Under the pieces are notes generated by a model, which saw only the letters and a list, made by a program, of their open reading frames with translations, had not been told where the DNA came from and did no database searches. This document shows, one piece after another, positions 3,410 to 34,755 of a stretch of 60,921 nt of DNA (positions are counted from its first letter, which is position 1; each line of letters opens with the position of its first letter). The stretch is from positions 1 through 60,921 of the IMG/VR virus record IMGVR_UViG_3300044491_001212. The stretch is one strand, 5' to 3'. A program made the translations under genes and the position numbers. The DNA comes from a virus.

Positions 3410-3936
3410 TGAACATCTTCGTTACAAGTTCGTGCCCTATCAAGTCTGCTCAAGTTCTTCCTGACAAACACATTGTCAAGATGCCACTTGAGACCTGTCA
3501 GATGCTTGCTATTGTATGCTCTGACAAATGGGGTCATGGGTTTGGTACCCTTCCTAAAGCTGATGGTACACCATACGCAACTGAGAAGGGTGCCTTCCGT
3601 AATCACCCTTGTACGATTTGGGCTAATGAGTTTGTGATGAATTGGCAATGGCTCCTCCACCACGGTATCGCTCTGTGTGAGGAGTATAAGAACCGATATG
3701 GTAAGGTTCACACTTGTCACCATACTCTAATGGGTGCAAAGGAAATCCTCCCTACAGGAGATCCTACAGGACGGTCTGGTAAAGATACCACACCGTTCGT
3801 TAGAGCTATGCCTGATGAGTTCAAACTAGATACTAGTATCTCAACCTTTGATGCATACAAGATGTACATAGGTTCTAAACCGTGGGTATCTGACAACTAC
3901 CTTCGTATTCCTGAACGTAAACCTGAATGGGTATGA
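3409..3936 (+). CDS. conserved phage protein, pyrimidine-dimer glycosylase-like candidate
   Basis: The 175-residue protein begins MNIFVTSSCPIKSAQVLPDKHIVKM, shown here as motif DKHIVKM followed by a conserved ETCQML helix. This N-terminal pattern (small beta strand, then a DK-hVKM helix with conserved E and Q) occurs in phage proteins sometimes annotated as pyrimidine dimer glycosylase-like (Pyr_excise). I recognise the family only loosely. No T4 DenV-like signature is visible. It lies between gp45 and purC with a one-base overlap, consistent with DNA repair or replication support. Confidence 0.45.
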   Translation: MNIFVTSSCPIKSAQVLPDKHIVKMPLETCQMLAIVCSDKWGHGFGTLPKADGTPYATEKGAFRNHPCTIWANEFVMNWQWLLHHGIALCEEYKNRYGKVHTCHHTLMGAKEILPTGDPTGRSGKDTTPFVRAMPDEFKLDTSISTFDAYKMYIGSKPWVSDNYLRIPERKPEWV

Positions 3937-4625
3937 ATGAAATCTTAAAAGGAAAAGTAAAAACACTTTTCGAAACAGACAATCCTGAAGAAGTATTGAT
4001 TCGTTATGAGGATTGTGTGACTGCTGGAAATGGACAGATGATTGATTACCCAAAAGGAAAGGGTGCGATCTGTTGTTTGATGACAGCAATGTTGTTTGAG
4101 TATCTAGAGAGTAACTCAATCAGAACACACTTTATCGATTGTCCTTCATTGGATACTATGAAGTGTAGAAAACTAAACATTGTTCCTGTGGAAGTTATCT
4201 GTAGGAACATCGCAGCTGGTTCTATTGTGAGAACTACAAACCTCACTGAGGGTATAATGATTCAACCTCCTATTGTTGAGTTCTTCCTCAAAGATGACAG
4301 TAAGAATGATCCTCTACTCACACCAGATCGTGTGAGGTTGATGGGTATCAATACAGAACCATTGATTGAAAAGGCTCGTAATGTCAACGATTTGTTACAA
4401 CCACTCTTCTTATTGTGTGGTATTGATCTAGTTGATTTTAAACTGGAGTTTGGGTATGACGCCCATGGTGACCTTTTTGTGGCTGATGAACTCTCACCAG
4501 ACAACATGAGGTTATGGAGTAAAGACAAAACAGAACGGTTCGATAAGGACTTGTTCCGTAAGGGAGAAGGTGATATAGTAGAAGCCTACAAGATTATTTT
4601 GACAAAACTGAGGCAGTTTGTATGA
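3933..4625 (+). CDS. purC: SAICAR synthetase PurC
   Basis: The 230-residue enzyme matches phosphoribosylaminoimidazole-succinocarboxamide synthase: N-terminal KGKVKTLFE, a long central region with EVICRNIAAGS and a C-terminal DELSPDNMRLW that matches the family's DE(V/I)xTPDxSR(F/L)W signature. It joins aspartate to CAIR in purine synthesis. It is a known cyanophage auxiliary gene, and here purS is also present at 10.3 kb, suggesting purine supply for phage DNA. The ATG at 3933 gives an ATGA overlap with the upstream stop; an in-frame ATG at 3927 is an alternative. Confidence 0.93.
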   Translation: MNEILKGKVKTLFETDNPEEVLIRYEDCVTAGNGQMIDYPKGKGAICCLMTAMLFEYLESNSIRTHFIDCPSLDTMKCRKLNIVPVEVICRNIAAGSIVRTTNLTEGIMIQPPIVEFFLKDDSKNDPLLTPDRVRLMGINTEPLIEKARNVNDLLQPLFLLCGIDLVDFKLEFGYDAHGDLFVADELSPDNMRLWSKDKTERFDKDLFRKGEGDIVEAYKIILTKLRQFV

Positions 4626-8180: not shown

Positions 8181-8379
8181 AGAGGCGGGTGGTGATATTG
8201 GTGAACCTGATTGTAGGTTGATTGAACCCTTTGTGGTGAACAATGATGGGACACTCTCTCCATGGTTAGTTTCTCTTACCAATCAGAACTCATTCATGAT
8301 TCATTCTGATAAGATCTTGACCATTGTTGAACCCAATGGTACACTAGTAGATAAGTACAGTGATCTGGTGAAGGAATGA
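8116..8379 (+). CDS. Sm-like (LSm) cyanophage protein 2
   Basis: The 87-residue product repeats the pattern of its upstream neighbour: LLVLPTNQILLTQIEE, then LSPW, then TIVEPNGTLVDKYSDL. It is shorter by one loop and has no acidic tail. It overlaps the preceding gene by 65 bases and the polymerase gene by four. Tandem position suggests duplication, and the two could form a mixed ring, which is inference. No good ribosome site precedes the ATG at 8116, so coupling to the upstream gene is likely. Confidence 0.6.
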   Translation: MSKENLKLLVLPTNQILLTQIEEAGGDIGEPDCRLIEPFVVNNDGTLSPWLVSLTNQNSFMIHSDKILTIVEPNGTLVDKYSDLVKE

Positions 8380-9836
8380 ATTTTTATACCAATGTGATGA
8401 TGGTTGGAAATGATTTCCTCGTTCGTGGTTATGAAAATGGTAAAAGAGTTCAATACAGAGAGAAGTTCCAACCTACCTTGTTTGTTAAATCAAACAGGGA
8501 GAGTGAGTGGAAGACATTAGAAGGTGAGAATGTAGAACCAATTCAACCTGGTTCCGTTCGTGATTGCCGTGAGTTCTTTAAGAAGTATGATGGTGTAGAT
8601 GGTTTTAAGATCTACGGAAATGATCGATACATCTATCAATATATCTCAGAGAAGTTCCCACAGAATGAGATCAAGTGGGACATATCCAAGATCAAACTTG
8701 CGACTATTGATATTGAGGTGAAATCAGAAGATGGATTCCCCTCACCAGATTCATGTTCAGAAGAGATGTTGACCATCTCCATTCAGGATTACAATACCAA
8801 AGAGATTCTTACTTGGGGTCGTAAACCTTATACTCCATCACAGAAGAACGTCACATACTTCCACTACGAAGAAGAAGTGGATATGTTGAGGTCGTTCATT
8901 GATTGGTGGAACCGAGATCCCCCCGAGGTTATCACTGGTTGGAACTGTAGATTTTATGATATCCCATACCTATGTGGACGTATCGATAGGATCATGGGTG
9001 AGAAGGAGATGAAGAGATTATCTCCATGGAATATGATAAAACATGATGAGATGGTTATCATGGGTAGAACTCATAATGTTTATGAGATTGCAGGTGTAAC
9101 CACACTTGACTTTATGGAACTCTATAAGAAGTTCACCTATGTGAACCGAGAGTCATATCGACTGGACTTCATTGCAGAGACAGAACTCGGACAGAAGAAG
9201 TTGGATCACTCAGAGTTCAATACCTTCAAAGAGTTCTATGATGGAGACTGGAAGAAGTTTGTAGACTATAACATCGTTGACGTGGAACTGGTTGATAGGA
9301 TGGAGGATAAACTCCGTCTCATTGAACTTGTTATCACTATGGCATTTGATGCTAAAGTGAACTTTATTGATCCTATGTTCCAAGTTAGGTTGTGGGATAC
9401 AATCATCTATAACTATCTAAAGAAGAGGAATATTGTTGTTCCTCAGATGGATAGAACAGATAAAGATTCAAAGTTTGCAGGTGCGTATGTCAAGGAACCG
9501 ATTCCAGGAGTCTATGATTGGGTTGTTAACTTTGACCTCAACTCTCTGTATCCTCATCTTATTATGCAGTACAATATCAGCCCAGAAACGCTCTTGGATG
9601 AGAAACACCCAACATCAACAGTTGATCGAATCCTCAATGAGGAGGTAAACTTTGAGATGTATAAGGATTATGCTGTGTGTGCCAATGGTGCAATGTATCG
9701 TAAAGATGTGAAAGGTTTCCTCCCAGAACTTATGGAGAAGATGTACGCTGAACGAAAGGCATTCAAGGGTAAGATGTTGAAGAGCAAACAGAAACTCGTT
9801 GATATTGAAGCTGAGATGAAACGGAGGGGATTGTGA
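8376..9836 (+). CDS. 43: gp43 DNA polymerase, N-terminal part (exonuclease and palm motif A)
   Basis: This 486-residue protein is the first half of a family B T4-type polymerase. It holds the 3'-5' exonuclease motifs (TIDIEVKS; GWNCRFYDIPYL; YNIVDVELV) and palm motif A (FDLNSLYPHLIMQYN). It stops in the fingers after KMLKSKQKLVDIEAEMKRRGL, shown here by the end MKRRGL. The rest of the polymerase is encoded 892 bp downstream. Together the parts total 872 residues, near the roughly 900 of T4 gp43. The stop is embedded in a GGAGGGGATTGTGA that serves the next gene. Confidence 0.93.
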   Translation: MNFYTNVMMVGNDFLVRGYENGKRVQYREKFQPTLFVKSNRESEWKTLEGENVEPIQPGSVRDCREFFKKYDGVDGFKIYGNDRYIYQYISEKFPQNEIKWDISKIKLATIDIEVKSEDGFPSPDSCSEEMLTISIQDYNTKEILTWGRKPYTPSQKNVTYFHYEEEVDMLRSFIDWWNRDPPEVITGWNCRFYDIPYLCGRIDRIMGEKEMKRLSPWNMIKHDEMVIMGRTHNVYEIAGVTTLDFMELYKKFTYVNRESYRLDFIAETELGQKKLDHSEFNTFKEFYDGDWKKFVDYNIVDVELVDRMEDKLRLIELVITMAFDAKVNFIDPMFQVRLWDTIIYNYLKKRNIVVPQMDRTDKDSKFAGAYVKEPIPGVYDWVVNFDLNSLYPHLIMQYNISPETLLDEKHPTSTVDRILNEEVNFEMYKDYAVCANGAMYRKDVKGFLPELMEKMYAERKAFKGKMLKSKQKLVDIEAEMKRRGL

Positions 9837-10099
9837 ATCTTCCAGATATTATTAGAAAGAATTCTTTTGATTGTTTCAAAAGTTTGAATGCTGCTGAGAG
9901 AGCAGTTGTTATGTTTGGTGATGAAGCATACCGAGAGTCACTAGATCTTGAGAATGATGATGCTCCCTGTTGGGTTATGCAATCTGGTGAGACTTATGGG
10001 TTTGTTGGTTGGAATACACAGTGTGTTCCGACAATTGATTACATAGTATGGAAACTAGAACGTCGTGAGAAAATTGCGAAAGGAGAAATTCATGAGTAA
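9833..10099 (+). CDS. small protein inside the split polymerase locus, unknown
   Basis: The 88-residue acidic product (NAAERAVVMFGDEAYRESL) is not recognised. It starts at GTG 9833, overlapping the polymerase stop, with a strong GGAGG at 9823-9827 lying inside the last polymerase codons. This suggests the split is an established arrangement with adapted translation signals. No endonuclease motif is visible. Confidence 0.65.
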   Translation: MNLPDIIRKNSFDCFKSLNAAERAVVMFGDEAYRESLDLENDDAPCWVMQSGETYGFVGWNTQCVPTIDYIVWKLERREKIAKGEIHE

Positions 10100-10304
10100 C
10101 AAACTCAATATCACCCCACAAACATACATCGATATGAACAAGGAGTTTGTGGAGGAAGGAATTCCTTTTGAGGTTGTCATTCCAACTCAAGAGAAAATTG
10201 ATGAGTGGTTGGAACAACCATCAGTTCATCACGATCCACCACCTCAAATAGATATGGTACAAGAAATGTGGGACAAAATTGGAGGTAGACCTAATGAAGT
10301 TTAA
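10092..10304 (+). CDS. small protein inside the split polymerase locus, unknown
   Basis: The 70-residue product is acidic with a Pro/His patch (VHHDPPPQ) and is not recognised. ATG 10092 has AAAGGAG directly upstream. It overlaps the previous gene by eight bases and purS by eleven, so it belongs to the same coupled run. Confidence 0.6.
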   Translation: MSNKLNITPQTYIDMNKEFVEEGIPFEVVIPTQEKIDEWLEQPSVHHDPPPQIDMVQEMWDKIGGRPNEV

Positions 10305-10575
10305 AGCACTAGTATTCATCCGTCTAAGGTCACAGGTTGATGACTCTCCTGGTAATGCTGTGAGAGATTGTTGTGGTAGAATGTCTGAGTTGGACATTAA
10401 AAAACTTAGACTTGGTAAGGTGATTGATATTTGGTTGGAAGCAGATACTAGAGAGTATGCTGAGAAGGAACTTGAAATGTTATCTGATAGATTCCTTGCC
10501 AATACAGTCATGGAAGACTGGGATTATGAATTGACTGAGATTGAAAGTTTCCCCAAAGGTATTGAGAATGAGTAA
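10294..10575 (+). CDS. purS: PurS, FGAM synthase small subunit
   Basis: The 93-residue protein matches PurS: an N-terminal VFIRLRSQVDDSPGNAV strand-helix unit, then KLRLGKVIDIWLEAD and a C-terminal LANTVMEDWDYEL. In bacteria PurS joins PurL and PurQ to form phosphoribosylformylglycinamidine synthase, step four of purine synthesis. ATG 10294 has GGAGGT at 10281-10286. With purC at 3.9 kb it gives the phage a partial purine pathway. It lies between the two halves of the DNA polymerase. Confidence 0.85.
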   Translation: MKFKALVFIRLRSQVDDSPGNAVRDCCGRMSELDIKKLRLGKVIDIWLEADTREYAEKELEMLSDRFLANTVMEDWDYELTEIESFPKGIENE

Positions 10576-10729
10576 CAGAGACAAGAAGTATGGTGGTCTT
10601 GTTCGTTATGATCACCATGATAAAATCATCTATCTTCAGAGGAATATGAATCCTCCCACAGCACACGCTCGATTTGTCAAAAAACTCCAGGAAGAGTATC
10701 CTGGTTATAAGGTAGTGAGTAAGAAGTAA
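10568..10729 (+). CDS. small basic protein inside the split polymerase locus
   Basis: The 53-residue basic product (MSNRDKKYGGLVRYDHHDKI start) has no recognised domain. ATG 10568 lies eight bases inside the end of purS, and its TAA shares a base with the ATG of the C-terminal polymerase part, so translation is likely coupled into that gene. Confidence 0.6.
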   Translation: MSNRDKKYGGLVRYDHHDKIIYLQRNMNPPTAHARFVKKLQEEYPGYKVVSKK

Positions 10730-11889
10730 TGGGGTACCTTATTGGTGGAGCCGGAGATGGCGCAGAAGAAGAGATCGTACAATCTGGTAAAGACTACTCC
10801 AAACTGTCTGATAGAGAACTATTGAGTCTCAGAGATCAGACAGTAAAAGATGTTGCCAAGTTCAACAACTTCCAGATGGTTCGTAAGATCTGTTTGAACT
10901 CAGCATATGGTGCCGTTGGTAACCAATACTTTAGATACTTCAAACTTGCTAACGCAGAAGCTATTACTCTTTCCGGTCAAACATCTATCAGGTGGATTGA
11001 AGATCGGTTGAACAAGTATTTGAATGACCTTCTAAAGACCGACAATGATTATGTTATTGCGGTTGATACTGATTCTGTATATCTCAACCTTGGTCCTCTT
11101 GTTGATAAGTTTCTAGCAAAACAAAAGGGTGATAAAGAGAAGGTAGTAAACCTTCTGGATAAGGTATGTCAAGAACAACTAGAACCTTATATTGATAAGT
11201 GTTATGTGAAACTGGCTGACTATGTGAATGCATATGATCAGAAGATGCAGATGAAGAGAGAGAACATCGCTGATCGTGGTATCTGGACGGCCAAGAAGAG
11301 ATACATCCTCAATGTGTGGGATAGTGAGGGTGTTCGTTATGAAGAACCCAAACTCAAGATCATGGGTATTGAGGCTGTCAAATCATCCACACCTGCACCC
11401 TGTAGGAAGATGATTAAGGATGGTCTTCGAGTGATGATGGAAGGGACTGAAGATGAGATGATTAAGTTCATTGATCAGGCTAGGATCAAGTTCAACAAAC
11501 TATCAGTAGAAGAGTTAGCATTTCCCCGTTCTATTTCTGATGTAAATAAACATAAGAGTCACATAACCATCTATGGAAAGGGTTGCCCTATTCATGTGAG
11601 AGGTTCACTACTTCATAATCACTACATCAAAGAGAGAGGTTTGGATAACAAGTATTCTCTTATCAATAATGGTGATAAGATTAAGTTTGTTTATCTAAAG
11701 AAAGCCAATCCTATTCGTGAGAATGTGATTTCATTCTTGAATGATTTCCCCCATGAGTTGGGACTTGATAAGTATATTGATTATGAGTTACAATTTAACA
11801 AAGCCTTCCTTGAACCTGTAAAGGTTATTCTTGATTCCATTGGATGGAATGTTGAAAAAGTTGCAAACCTAGAGTTATTTTTTAGTTAA
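10729..11889 (+). CDS. 43: gp43 DNA polymerase, C-terminal part (fingers, palm motif C, thumb)
   Basis: The 386-residue protein continues the polymerase: motif B KICLNSAYGAVGN, motif C VDTDSVYLN, KKRY (WTAKKRYILNVW), thumb and a C-terminal KVANLELFF clamp-binding tail like that of T4 gp43. The N-terminal 45 residues (MGYLIGGAGDG on) are hydrophilic and not clearly homologous. The catalytic Asp of motif A is on the other polypeptide, so the two must associate to be active. It overlaps the upstream TAA by one base (TAATG) and ends on the A of uvsX. Confidence 0.92.
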   Translation: MGYLIGGAGDGAEEEIVQSGKDYSKLSDRELLSLRDQTVKDVAKFNNFQMVRKICLNSAYGAVGNQYFRYFKLANAEAITLSGQTSIRWIEDRLNKYLNDLLKTDNDYVIAVDTDSVYLNLGPLVDKFLAKQKGDKEKVVNLLDKVCQEQLEPYIDKCYVKLADYVNAYDQKMQMKRENIADRGIWTAKKRYILNVWDSEGVRYEEPKLKIMGIEAVKSSTPAPCRKMIKDGLRVMMEGTEDEMIKFIDQARIKFNKLSVEELAFPRSISDVNKHKSHITIYGKGCPIHVRGSLLHNHYIKERGLDNKYSLINNGDKIKFVYLKKANPIRENVISFLNDFPHELGLDKYIDYELQFNKAFLEPVKVILDSIGWNVEKVANLELFFS

Positions 11890-33580: not shown

Positions 33581-33654
33581 GGGTTAGTAGCTCAGCTGGA
33601 TAGAGCACGTCACTTCTAATGATGCGGTCGGGGGTTCGAATCCCTCCTAACCCG
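33581..33654 (+). tRNA. tRNA-Arg(TCT)
   Basis: A full cloverleaf: acceptor GGGTTAG/CTAACCC, D stem GCTC/GAGC, anticodon stem CGTCA/TGATG with loop CTTCTAA (anticodon TCT at 33615-33617), T stem GGGGG/CCCTC with TTCGAAT, discriminator G. CCA is not encoded. It reads AGA, a codon favoured by phage over GC-richer hosts. Confidence 0.95.
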
Positions 33655-33726
33655 TTTCCAAAGTGTCACACGGTTCTCCCGTTACCTTTGGATCCACCTT
33701 ATACTATTCATAGTTAAACAAACATT

Positions 33727-34056
33727 ATGTCTCTCGATCTTGATTTGAATCAAATCATTCCCAGTGTTGTTCGTAGTGTAGCTGTTGGAGTTGTAGCACT
33801 TCCTCTAGCACTCTCTGTGAGTGGTACACTAAACGCTGGTAGTTCATTCCTTCGAGCACAAGCTGAAGTGGCTAGTTCTGAGAACACAGCTACTCTCGCT
33901 CAGAACGATGTTAAGGGAGATCTTACTCGTGTCTGTCTCGACTACCTCCTTTCTAAAGGTGATAGTAAGGCAGAACGAACAGCTAAAGATGAGATTGATA
34001 CATACTTCGGTGGTGAGATGAACTACGCAGAAGTCTGTAAGTGGGTCTATCGTTGA
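33727..34056 (+). CDS. small protein with N-terminal membrane segment, unknown
   Basis: The 109-residue product has a hydrophobic segment (VAVGVVALPLALSVSGTL) and a soluble C-terminal half with two Cys. It lies inside the tRNA cluster between Arg and Thr. A TATACT element at 33700-33705 may be its -10. A UUCG-loop hairpin (34063-34078) follows the stop. Function unknown. Confidence 0.6.
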   Translation: MSLDLDLNQIIPSVVRSVAVGVVALPLALSVSGTLNAGSSFLRAQAEVASSENTATLAQNDVKGDLTRVCLDYLLSKGDSKAERTAKDEIDTYFGGEMNYAEVCKWVYR

Positions 34057-34062
34057 TCCCAC

Positions 34063-34078
34063 AGCCTCTTCGGGGGCT
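34063..34078 (+). other. UUCG hairpin between a coding gene and tRNA-Thr
   Basis: AGCCTC and GGGGCT pair around TTCG with one G-T pair. No T tract follows. It may protect or mark the mRNA end before tRNA processing. Confidence 0.4.
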
Positions 34079-34082
34079 ACTA

Positions 34083-34153
34083 GCCTCTAAAGCATTATGG
34101 TGATGCACCTGTTTTGTAATCAGGAGATCTCAGTTCAATTCTGGGTAGGGGCT
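34083..34153 (+). tRNA. tRNA-Thr(TGT)
   Basis: Acceptor GCCTCTA/TAGGGGC, D stem GCAT/ATGC, anticodon loop TTTGTAA with anticodon TGT at 34115-34117, T stem CTCAG/CTGGG. The closing pair of the anticodon stem is T-T and the D arm is unusual. CCA is not encoded. Confidence 0.85.
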
Positions 34154-34155
34154 CC

Positions 34156-34229
34156 GCGGAATTAGTTTAGAGGCAAAACTAAAGGTTTCCAACCTTTCGT
34201 CACCAGTTCGATTCTGGTATTCCGCTCCA
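34156..34229 (+). tRNA. tRNA-Gly(TCC)
   Basis: Acceptor GCGGAAT/ATTCCGC, D stem GTTT/AAAC, anticodon stem AAAGG/CCTTT with TCC at 34188-34190, T stem ACCAG/CTGGT. T73 is followed by an encoded CCA (34227-34229). Confidence 0.93.
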
Positions 34230-34230
34230 A

Positions 34231-34248
34231 TCCTCTATAGCTCAGTTG
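34231..34248 (+). pseudogene. truncated tRNA 5' stub (Asn-like)
   Basis: TCCTCTATAGCTCAGTTG looks like the acceptor strand, positions 8-9, D stem and start of the D loop of a tRNA and then stops before the HNH gene. It closely resembles the 5' end of the intact tRNA-Asn at 34606 (TCCCCTGTAGCTCAATCA). Confidence 0.6.
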
Positions 34249-34261
34249 AAAAAGGTTCGTT

Positions 34262-34269
34262 TATAAATA
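34262..34269 (+). promoter_or_regulatory. late promoter box TATAAATA
   Basis: A perfect late box 22 bases before the HNH gene, just after the tRNA stub. It would express the HNH gene late. Confidence 0.65.
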
Positions 34270-34291
34270 TAAATGAACCCATAATAAAACT

Positions 34292-34615
34292 ATGCCATAT
34301 AAGGATAAAGAAAAACAAAAGGAATTCCAGAGAGAGTGGGCTCGTAACAAAGGTCCAAACTCCTGGTTAATCAGAAAGATAGAACTTCTTCGTGCTGCTA
34401 AAGATATTCCTTGTCAATCCTGTGGGGAAGTTCATCCACCCTGTTGTATGGACTTACATCATGTAGACCCAACGGATAAAAAGTATGAGATATCATTTTT
34501 AAAAAAGAATGGATCCATACGACTTCTAGAAGAAGAATTAGAAAAATGTGTTTGCTTATGTGCCCTGTGCCATAGAAAGATACATGCTAATCTTATAGAA
34601 CTCATTCCCCTGTAG
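34292..34615 (+). CDS. HNH endonuclease
   Basis: The 107-residue basic protein has two zinc-binding CxxC-type pairs (CQSCG and CALCHRKIH) around the HNH core DLHHVDP with a distal His, and a basic N-terminus (MPYKDKEKQKEFQREW) typical of small phage homing nucleases. Its last codons and TAG overlap the first ten bases of tRNA-Asn, and a tRNA stub lies upstream. This suggests a mobile gene inserted in a tRNA gene that has kept one functional copy. Confidence 0.85.
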   Translation: MPYKDKEKQKEFQREWARNKGPNSWLIRKIELLRAAKDIPCQSCGEVHPPCCMDLHHVDPTDKKYEISFLKKNGSIRLLEEELEKCVCLCALCHRKIHANLIELIPL

Positions 34616-34682
34616 CTCAATCAGGCAGAGCGCCAAACTGTTAATTTGGATGTTACTGGTTCGATTCCAGTCGGGGGAGCCA
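34606..34682 (+). tRNA. tRNA-Asn(GTT)
   Basis: Acceptor TCCCCTG/CGGGGGA, D stem GCTC/GAGC, anticodon stem CCAAA/TTTGG with GTT at 34640-34642, T stem ACTGG/CCAGT, G73 and encoded CCA. Its 5' end overlaps the HNH stop codon. Confidence 0.95.
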
Positions 34683-34683
34683 C

Positions 34684-34755
34684 GCTCGAATAGTTCAGAG
34701 GTAGAACACTTGATTTACATTCAAGTTGTCGGGGGTTCGATCCCCTCTTCGAGCA
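34684..34755 (+). tRNA. tRNA-Val(TAC)
   Basis: Acceptor GCTCGAA/TTCGAGC, D stem GTTC/GAAC, anticodon stem CTTGA/TCAAG with TAC at 34716-34718, T stem GGGGG/CCCTC. No encoded CCA. It follows tRNA-Asn by one base. Confidence 0.95.

Follow-up and report, generated by a model that had tools for sequence, protein, structure and literature searches.

A two-part gp43 DNA polymerase in marine T4-like cyanophages, with a gap between its halves that can be bare or hold endonucleases or purine genes

The DNA analysed here is a 60,921-base IMG/VR virus fragment (IMGVR_UViG_3300044491_001212) from a T4-like cyanophage of ocean cyanobacteria, the whole of which we refer to as the window. Its replication cluster comprises a gp44-like clamp loader, RegA, Hsp20, gp43, UvsX, a gp41-like helicase and MazG, and the DNA polymerase gene of this cluster, gp43, occurs as two separate reading frames on the + strand. 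The first, gp43N (positions 8376 to 9836, 486 amino acids), encodes the N-terminal region, the exonuclease, palm motif A and the first fingers helix (phrog_262/phrog_2062, PF03104, PF00136), and the second, gp43C (10729 to 11889, 386 amino acids), encodes the second fingers helix, motif B, motif C (DTDS) and the thumb (phrog_262/phrog_1918, PF00136). The 892 bp between the stop of the one and the start of the other hold four genes, purS among them, at the very coordinates given in an original prediction made from the sequence alone. In the PHROGs profiles, gp43N matches positions 7-495 of phrog_262 and gp43C positions 498-851, and Pfam assigns both to DNA polymerase.

Motif residues were placed by alignment to RB69 gp43, in which gp43N ends at residue 494 and gp43C restarts at 531. 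Residues 495 to 530 are covered by neither half, and the break lies at the tip of the fingers, the same location as in Aeromonas phage 25 and Acinetobacter phage 133. On gp43N we find the exonuclease residues D112/E114, the palm D387 and two residues that bind the nucleotide, R460 and K464; gp43C carries K53, N57, Y60 and, in DTDS, the aspartates D113/D115. Every checked exonuclease and polymerase catalytic residue is present, shared out between the two halves, and no essential residue is missing; the alignment bears out the earlier assignment of the exonuclease and motif A to the first part, and of motif B and DTDS to the second. Summed, the halves reach 872 residues, versus ~830 or 845 in intact cyanophage gp43, and the surplus consists of a tail on gp43N (LVDIEAEMKRRGL) and a head on gp43C (MGYLIGGAGDGAEEEIVQSG). 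This head, a split-specific N-terminal extension of ~27 amino acids that opens MGYLIGG (10729 to 10809, + strand) and does not occur in intact gp43, is kept across 27 aligned split loci with G2, L4, I5, G6 and G7 invariant. Since its codons differ at synonymous sites, the head is constrained as a peptide, and our guess is that it could be a docking peptide for the halves.

Both parts are under strong purifying selection, with ratios of nonsynonymous to synonymous substitution rates (dN/dS) of 0.06-0.09 for gp43N and 0.04-0.07 for gp43C. In each complete genome of a split isolate, gp43N and gp43C were both matched once, and the split gp43 is the sole polymerase in ACG-2014f, S-CREM2, S-H34 and MA01; within the 60.9 kb record of the window, a second gp43 was not found. 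An assembly chimera, a possibility contemplated in the original prediction, was ruled out by an independent contig (locus L022, 96-97% identical in gp43) and by several relatives at 85-96%, all of them identically split.

The relatives were gathered by scans of IMG/VR and of GenBank phages, which yielded ~55 cyanophage loci whose gp43 ends at the fingers tip, among them the complete single-copy isolates ACG-2014f, S-CREM2, S-H34 and MA01. Because these loci were selected by similarity to the window sequence, their frequencies are not prevalences; most of the contigs are short. The commonest single form of the gap, seen in 19 loci, is a bare, endonuclease-free junction where the stop codon of gp43N and the start codon of gp43C share a base in TAATG and no sequence intervenes, which means that the purS cassette does not define the split. 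Other gaps contain an HNH endonuclease (L011/L257, L031, L254 and L258; phrog_374, E 1e-56 for L011) or a Vsr/DUF559-like endonuclease (L098, L099), and both kinds sit at the same base position as the bare junction. The pair L011 and L013 illustrates this well, with flanks 83-95% identical and a difference consisting of an HNH insertion at the TAATG that is bare in L013. A thioredoxin-like gene (L007), purM alone (L006), and mixtures of phrog_1132, purM, purS, phrog_2067, phrog_3538 and a small lipoprotein-like open reading frame (ORF) (L022, L086, L088, L089, L090, L091) complete this series. The contrast once drawn between the window and polymerases split by homing endonucleases holds for the window itself and fails for its near relatives, which carry HNH or Vsr-like enzymes at the exact junction.

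There are further interruptions of gp43 around this theme. A distinct split at the same fingers tip, with a phrog_655 endonuclease and without the GYLIGG head, occurs in L075, L079 and L082, and two distant tip-split loci, L170 and L238, have gaps of 1.6-4.6 kb that open with related proteins of ~180 amino acids (L170 2829-3368 and L238 397-945), in which a likeness to SpoU-type RNA methyltransferases was noted by eye. A second natural break lies after palm motif A (L042, L053, L054, L083 and L036, with intact sisters L040 and L047); there, gp43N ends in ...NNRIAELEK or ...AELEKML, and the gap holds an HNH endonuclease in L042, L053 and L054, a remnant of one in L083, and none that we could see in L036.

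Within the gap of the window, all junctions overlap by a few bases and all genes lie on the + strand. The first gene (9833 to 10099, 88 amino acids, GTG start) belongs to phrog_1132 (E 1.5e-48), a family of unassigned function whose member in S-RIM12 adjoins purM, and the second (10095 to 10304, 69 amino acids) belongs to phrog_2067 (E 3.5e-21), likewise of unassigned function. The third (10297 to 10575, 92 amino acids) encodes PurS, the small subunit of phosphoribosylformylglycinamidine (FGAM) synthase (PF02700, E 3e-16, above the gathering score; TIGR00302, 51.6 bits versus a cut-off of 39; phrog_1282). The fourth (10571 to 10729, 52 amino acids) is a member of phrog_3538, which was matched in 46 phage records; among the matches listed, all are ACG-2014f at the split, and in isolates the family occurs almost exclusively at the gp43 split site. 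The relative L022 has a 96% identical gp43, adds purM and a lipoprotein-like ORF, and is devoid of phrog_2067. The insert genes that L022 and the window have in common show a synonymous divergence (dS) of 0.54-0.82, versus 0.22-0.24 for the flanking gp43 halves, and the insert appears therefore to have a history different from that of its flanks, although these small genes are short, which makes their dS values rough and their dN/dS noisy.

The purine genes of the gap have counterparts elsewhere in cyanophage genomes. In S-RIM12, phrog_1132 adjoins purM beside purC and downstream of psbD; S-CAM8 has purS, purC and purM grouped; purS in ACG-2014e and S-CAM8 sits elsewhere than in a gp43 gap; and three loci with intact gp43 (L058, L059, L065) carry phrog_1132 and purM outside that gene. 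These arrangements support the earlier suggestion that purS arrived as cargo, and the likely source of the insert is to be seen among them. The window also has a purC (3927-4625), 58% identical to S-CAM8 PurC and upstream in the same cluster, so that its purine genes are scattered across the replication operon. Outside this cluster, the window encodes five tRNAs (33581-34755: Arg, Thr, Gly, Asn and Val).

The coding end of gp43N (...EMKRRGL*, 9811 to 9836, + strand) contains a Shine-Dalgarno (SD) sequence, CGGAGGGG, for the gene that follows (anti-SD pairing, -10.0 kcal/mol), and the KRRG codons that close gp43N play this part before whichever gene comes next. Over 34 tip-split loci, anti-SD pairing averages -8.4 kcal/mol at the gp43N end, versus -3.4 within gp43N. 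The ribosome sites and gene overlaps predicted for the insert are present too, and the SD sequence in the gp43N end, together with overlaps at all junctions of the window, suggests stop-start translational coupling. No convincing + strand terminator was detected inside the operon, where matches stay near shuffle level. One relative, L018, has no genes between the halves but a hairpin resembling a terminator and a site resembling a promoter (1059-1117), and gp43C there may be its own transcription unit.

Altogether, it seems quite probable to us that these phages possess a two-chain T4-type family B DNA polymerase, whose parts would be translated separately and then associate as one active enzyme, and that the gap between their genes is an exchange site used by homing endonucleases and cargo. 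The operon would yield gp43N, with the exonuclease and half of the palm and fingers, and gp43C, with the remaining fingers and palm and the thumb, as separate proteins, probably by means of stop-start overlaps aided by the SD sequence in the last codons of gp43N. The chains would join by way of the palm that they share and the fingers helices that pair, the break being placed at a tip that is distant from the active site and where at least three T4-like lineages have been cut. The earlier idea of a stable and functional split finds good indirect support in the purifying selection, the intact catalytic residues, the lack of any other polymerase in the complete split genomes, and the reviewed case of phage 25, whose 43A and 43B, alone among such pairs, are reported to co-purify and polymerise (PMC2988022). 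AlphaFold models of single halves are compatible with two chains completing one palm and with a gp43C that needs its partner, although they prove nothing. The model of gp43N alone has a mean predicted local distance difference test (pLDDT) of 76.6 and matches RB69 gp43 in Foldseek (TM 0.77, E 3e-35), with the motif A region unsure; in gp43C alone the thumb is confident, the palm is of low confidence (residues 57-81 and 166-217), global matches reach a TM of 0.4 only, and the first 15 residues, with pLDDT below 50, are modelled as a disordered head.

Split polymerases of this kind have precedents. Phage 25 shares with the window two cistrons (annotated as a split PolB) broken at the same fingers tip within the replication cluster, and differs in the GIY-YIG endonuclease that occupies its gap, in the group I intron of its 43B, in its ~30% identity, and in the absence of both the GYLIGG head and metabolic cargo. 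Phage 133, one of the Straboviridae, has the same tip break and unrelated genes between 43A and 43B (eight ORFs including a phosphatase, with no endonuclease named there), but its identity is ~31%, its cargo is another, and its junction to 43B is not coupled by overlap. An endonuclease or untranslated spacer, present in the gaps of phages 25 and 44RR and absent from those of phage 133 and the window, is therefore typical, not defining, of split gp43, and the precedents of phages 25 and 133 mean that a split gp43, even with cargo, was already known.

Among cyanophages, Synechococcus phage ACG-2014f has a homologous split with the GYLIGG head and phrog_3538 in the gap, annotated in GenBank as two gp43 coding sequences (CDS), but it has no purS and a gap of ~380 bp. 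In its GenBank record, the annotated gp43C (CDS 165) begins 186 nt downstream of this conserved head (L001 6842-7028), and the true start is probably an ATT upstream of the annotated one; ATT or ATC is also seen at the gp43C start position in endonuclease-bearing relatives. In the complete isolates S-CREM2, S-H34 and MA01 (Synechococcus phages), too, gp43 consists of two CDS, divided at the fingers tip by one small gene, but their gp43C begins MDLSKLS... without GYLIGG, a difference that probably reflects an independent break or loss of the head. The gp43 of S-CREM2 is annotated as subunits A and B, the split going unmentioned in the text of the S-CREM2 paper, and we found no paper in the open literature on split gp43 in cyanophages. 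What was already known for them is thus the two-CDS annotation in ACG-2014f and S-CREM2; what is new is the breadth of the split, the series of bare, endonuclease and cargo states at one base, the conserved head, the built-in ribosome site and the incongruence of the trees. A related phenomenon is that of the islands of homing endonuclease genes (HEG-islands) and of free-standing homing endonucleases that lie at boundaries of exchange between phages, where endonucleases beside essential genes exchange between phages and carry cargo along (PMC10448857); in the window, by contrast, the cargo is inside a split essential gene, and in the cyanophage gap the endonuclease is usually gone.

A gp43 tree from which the junction columns were left out scatters the split rows among the intact ones. 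It takes at least 6 changes to explain this, of which well supported branches impose 5, and the approximately unbiased (AU) test, although it presumes one tree for a probably recombining gene, rejects a single clade of split alleles (p 3e-9). This interleaving indicates that the split junction was passed between lineages by recombination, or that it was repeatedly replaced by intact alleles. On the reading that we favour, the gap works as an exchange site because conserved essential sequence flanks it: free-standing homing endonucleases would enter it, spread the split allele by recombination and then be lost, leaving either the bare TAATG junction or cargo (phrog_1132, purM, purS and others) in their place. 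A more far-reaching and tentative proposal is that of a permanent exchange site within this essential gene, where homing endonucleases would also have made the split before host-metabolism cassettes (purM, purS and others) replaced them. The broken polymerase would then offer auxiliary metabolic genes a place to land, and would be maintained by the built-in ribosome site and by the GYLIGG head, which may serve for docking.

Several observations weigh against the favoured reading. The gap of the window, occupied by phrog_1132, phrog_2067, purS and phrog_3538, contains no endonuclease; segment trees give 5-6 changes near the junction and 8-9 far off, which is only weakly fewer; and neither these trees nor best-match identities revealed a sharp co-conversion tract, so that they are no more than suggestive. 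The trees are, moreover, quick maximum-likelihood ones on a recombining gene, with change counts that are approximate, and there remains a chance that a separate intact gp43 lies beyond the 60.9 kb fragment.

A different history, which we consider rather unlikely, is that of a single ancestral split by simple mutation (TAATG), which exchange with intact alleles would then have reversed by recombination on several occasions, with endonucleases and cargo as late passive arrivals. It would suit the bare form being the commonest single one (19 loci) and free of endonucleases, the homology of the MGYLIGG head in all bare loci, and the fact that parsimony counts do not tell gain of the split from loss. 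However, outside, intact short-finger alleles are the common form, and two unrelated endonuclease families share the exact junction, with a third family placed at another tip split (L075, L082), as a homing site would predict; given such unrelated enzymes at one base, homing seems to us the more economical account. The disagreement concerns history only, the two-chain enzyme being common to both accounts.

Programmed frameshifting, which would give some full-length polymerase in the bare-junction relatives, is very improbable: gp43C is there in the -1 frame with respect to gp43N, with a one-base stop/start overlap, but no conserved slippery site was seen around the junction, and in the window the four genes between the halves preclude it. 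Removal of the 892 bp by a self-splicing mRNA intron, or joining of the two proteins by a split intein, could be imagined from the group I intron in gp43 of phage 25, found here by Rfam, and from the PolB of phage MIJ3, interrupted by a split intein with an endonuclease, yet we give it hardly any credence. Rfam detected no intron in the window even at an E-value threshold of 1 (a sub-threshold Ocean-VII match was disregarded) and, at the gathering threshold, none in those relatives that carry an endonuclease; the control, phage 25 (L164), was detected, so that splicing of 9837-10728, a possibility left by the original prediction, is not supported. Neither half has a Pfam intein domain at E 0.1, and the gp43N tail stops at KRRGL and gp43C starts at MGYLIGG, so that both an intein-N of ~100 amino acids and an HN splice motif are lacking; in the 19 bare loci, moreover, stop and start overlap by one base, which leaves nothing to remove and puts the frames out of register. 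Finally, a dead or decaying gp43 in a phage that replicates with another enzyme, conceivable insofar as the window is a fragment and a second polymerase could lie outside it, is scarcely plausible for halves that keep dN/dS below 0.1 and all catalytic residues, are conserved over tens of loci and occur as a single copy in complete isolates.

Marine cyanophages of many lineages thus appear to encode a replicative polymerase stably in two pieces. One set of relatives that displays three states of the gap, namely bare, endonuclease and cargo, makes it possible to test how free-standing homing endonucleases are domesticated or replaced, and how purine genes move in cyanophages. Moreover, family B polymerases seem to have in the fingers tip a natural site that tolerates splitting, which is of use in enzyme design and structural work.

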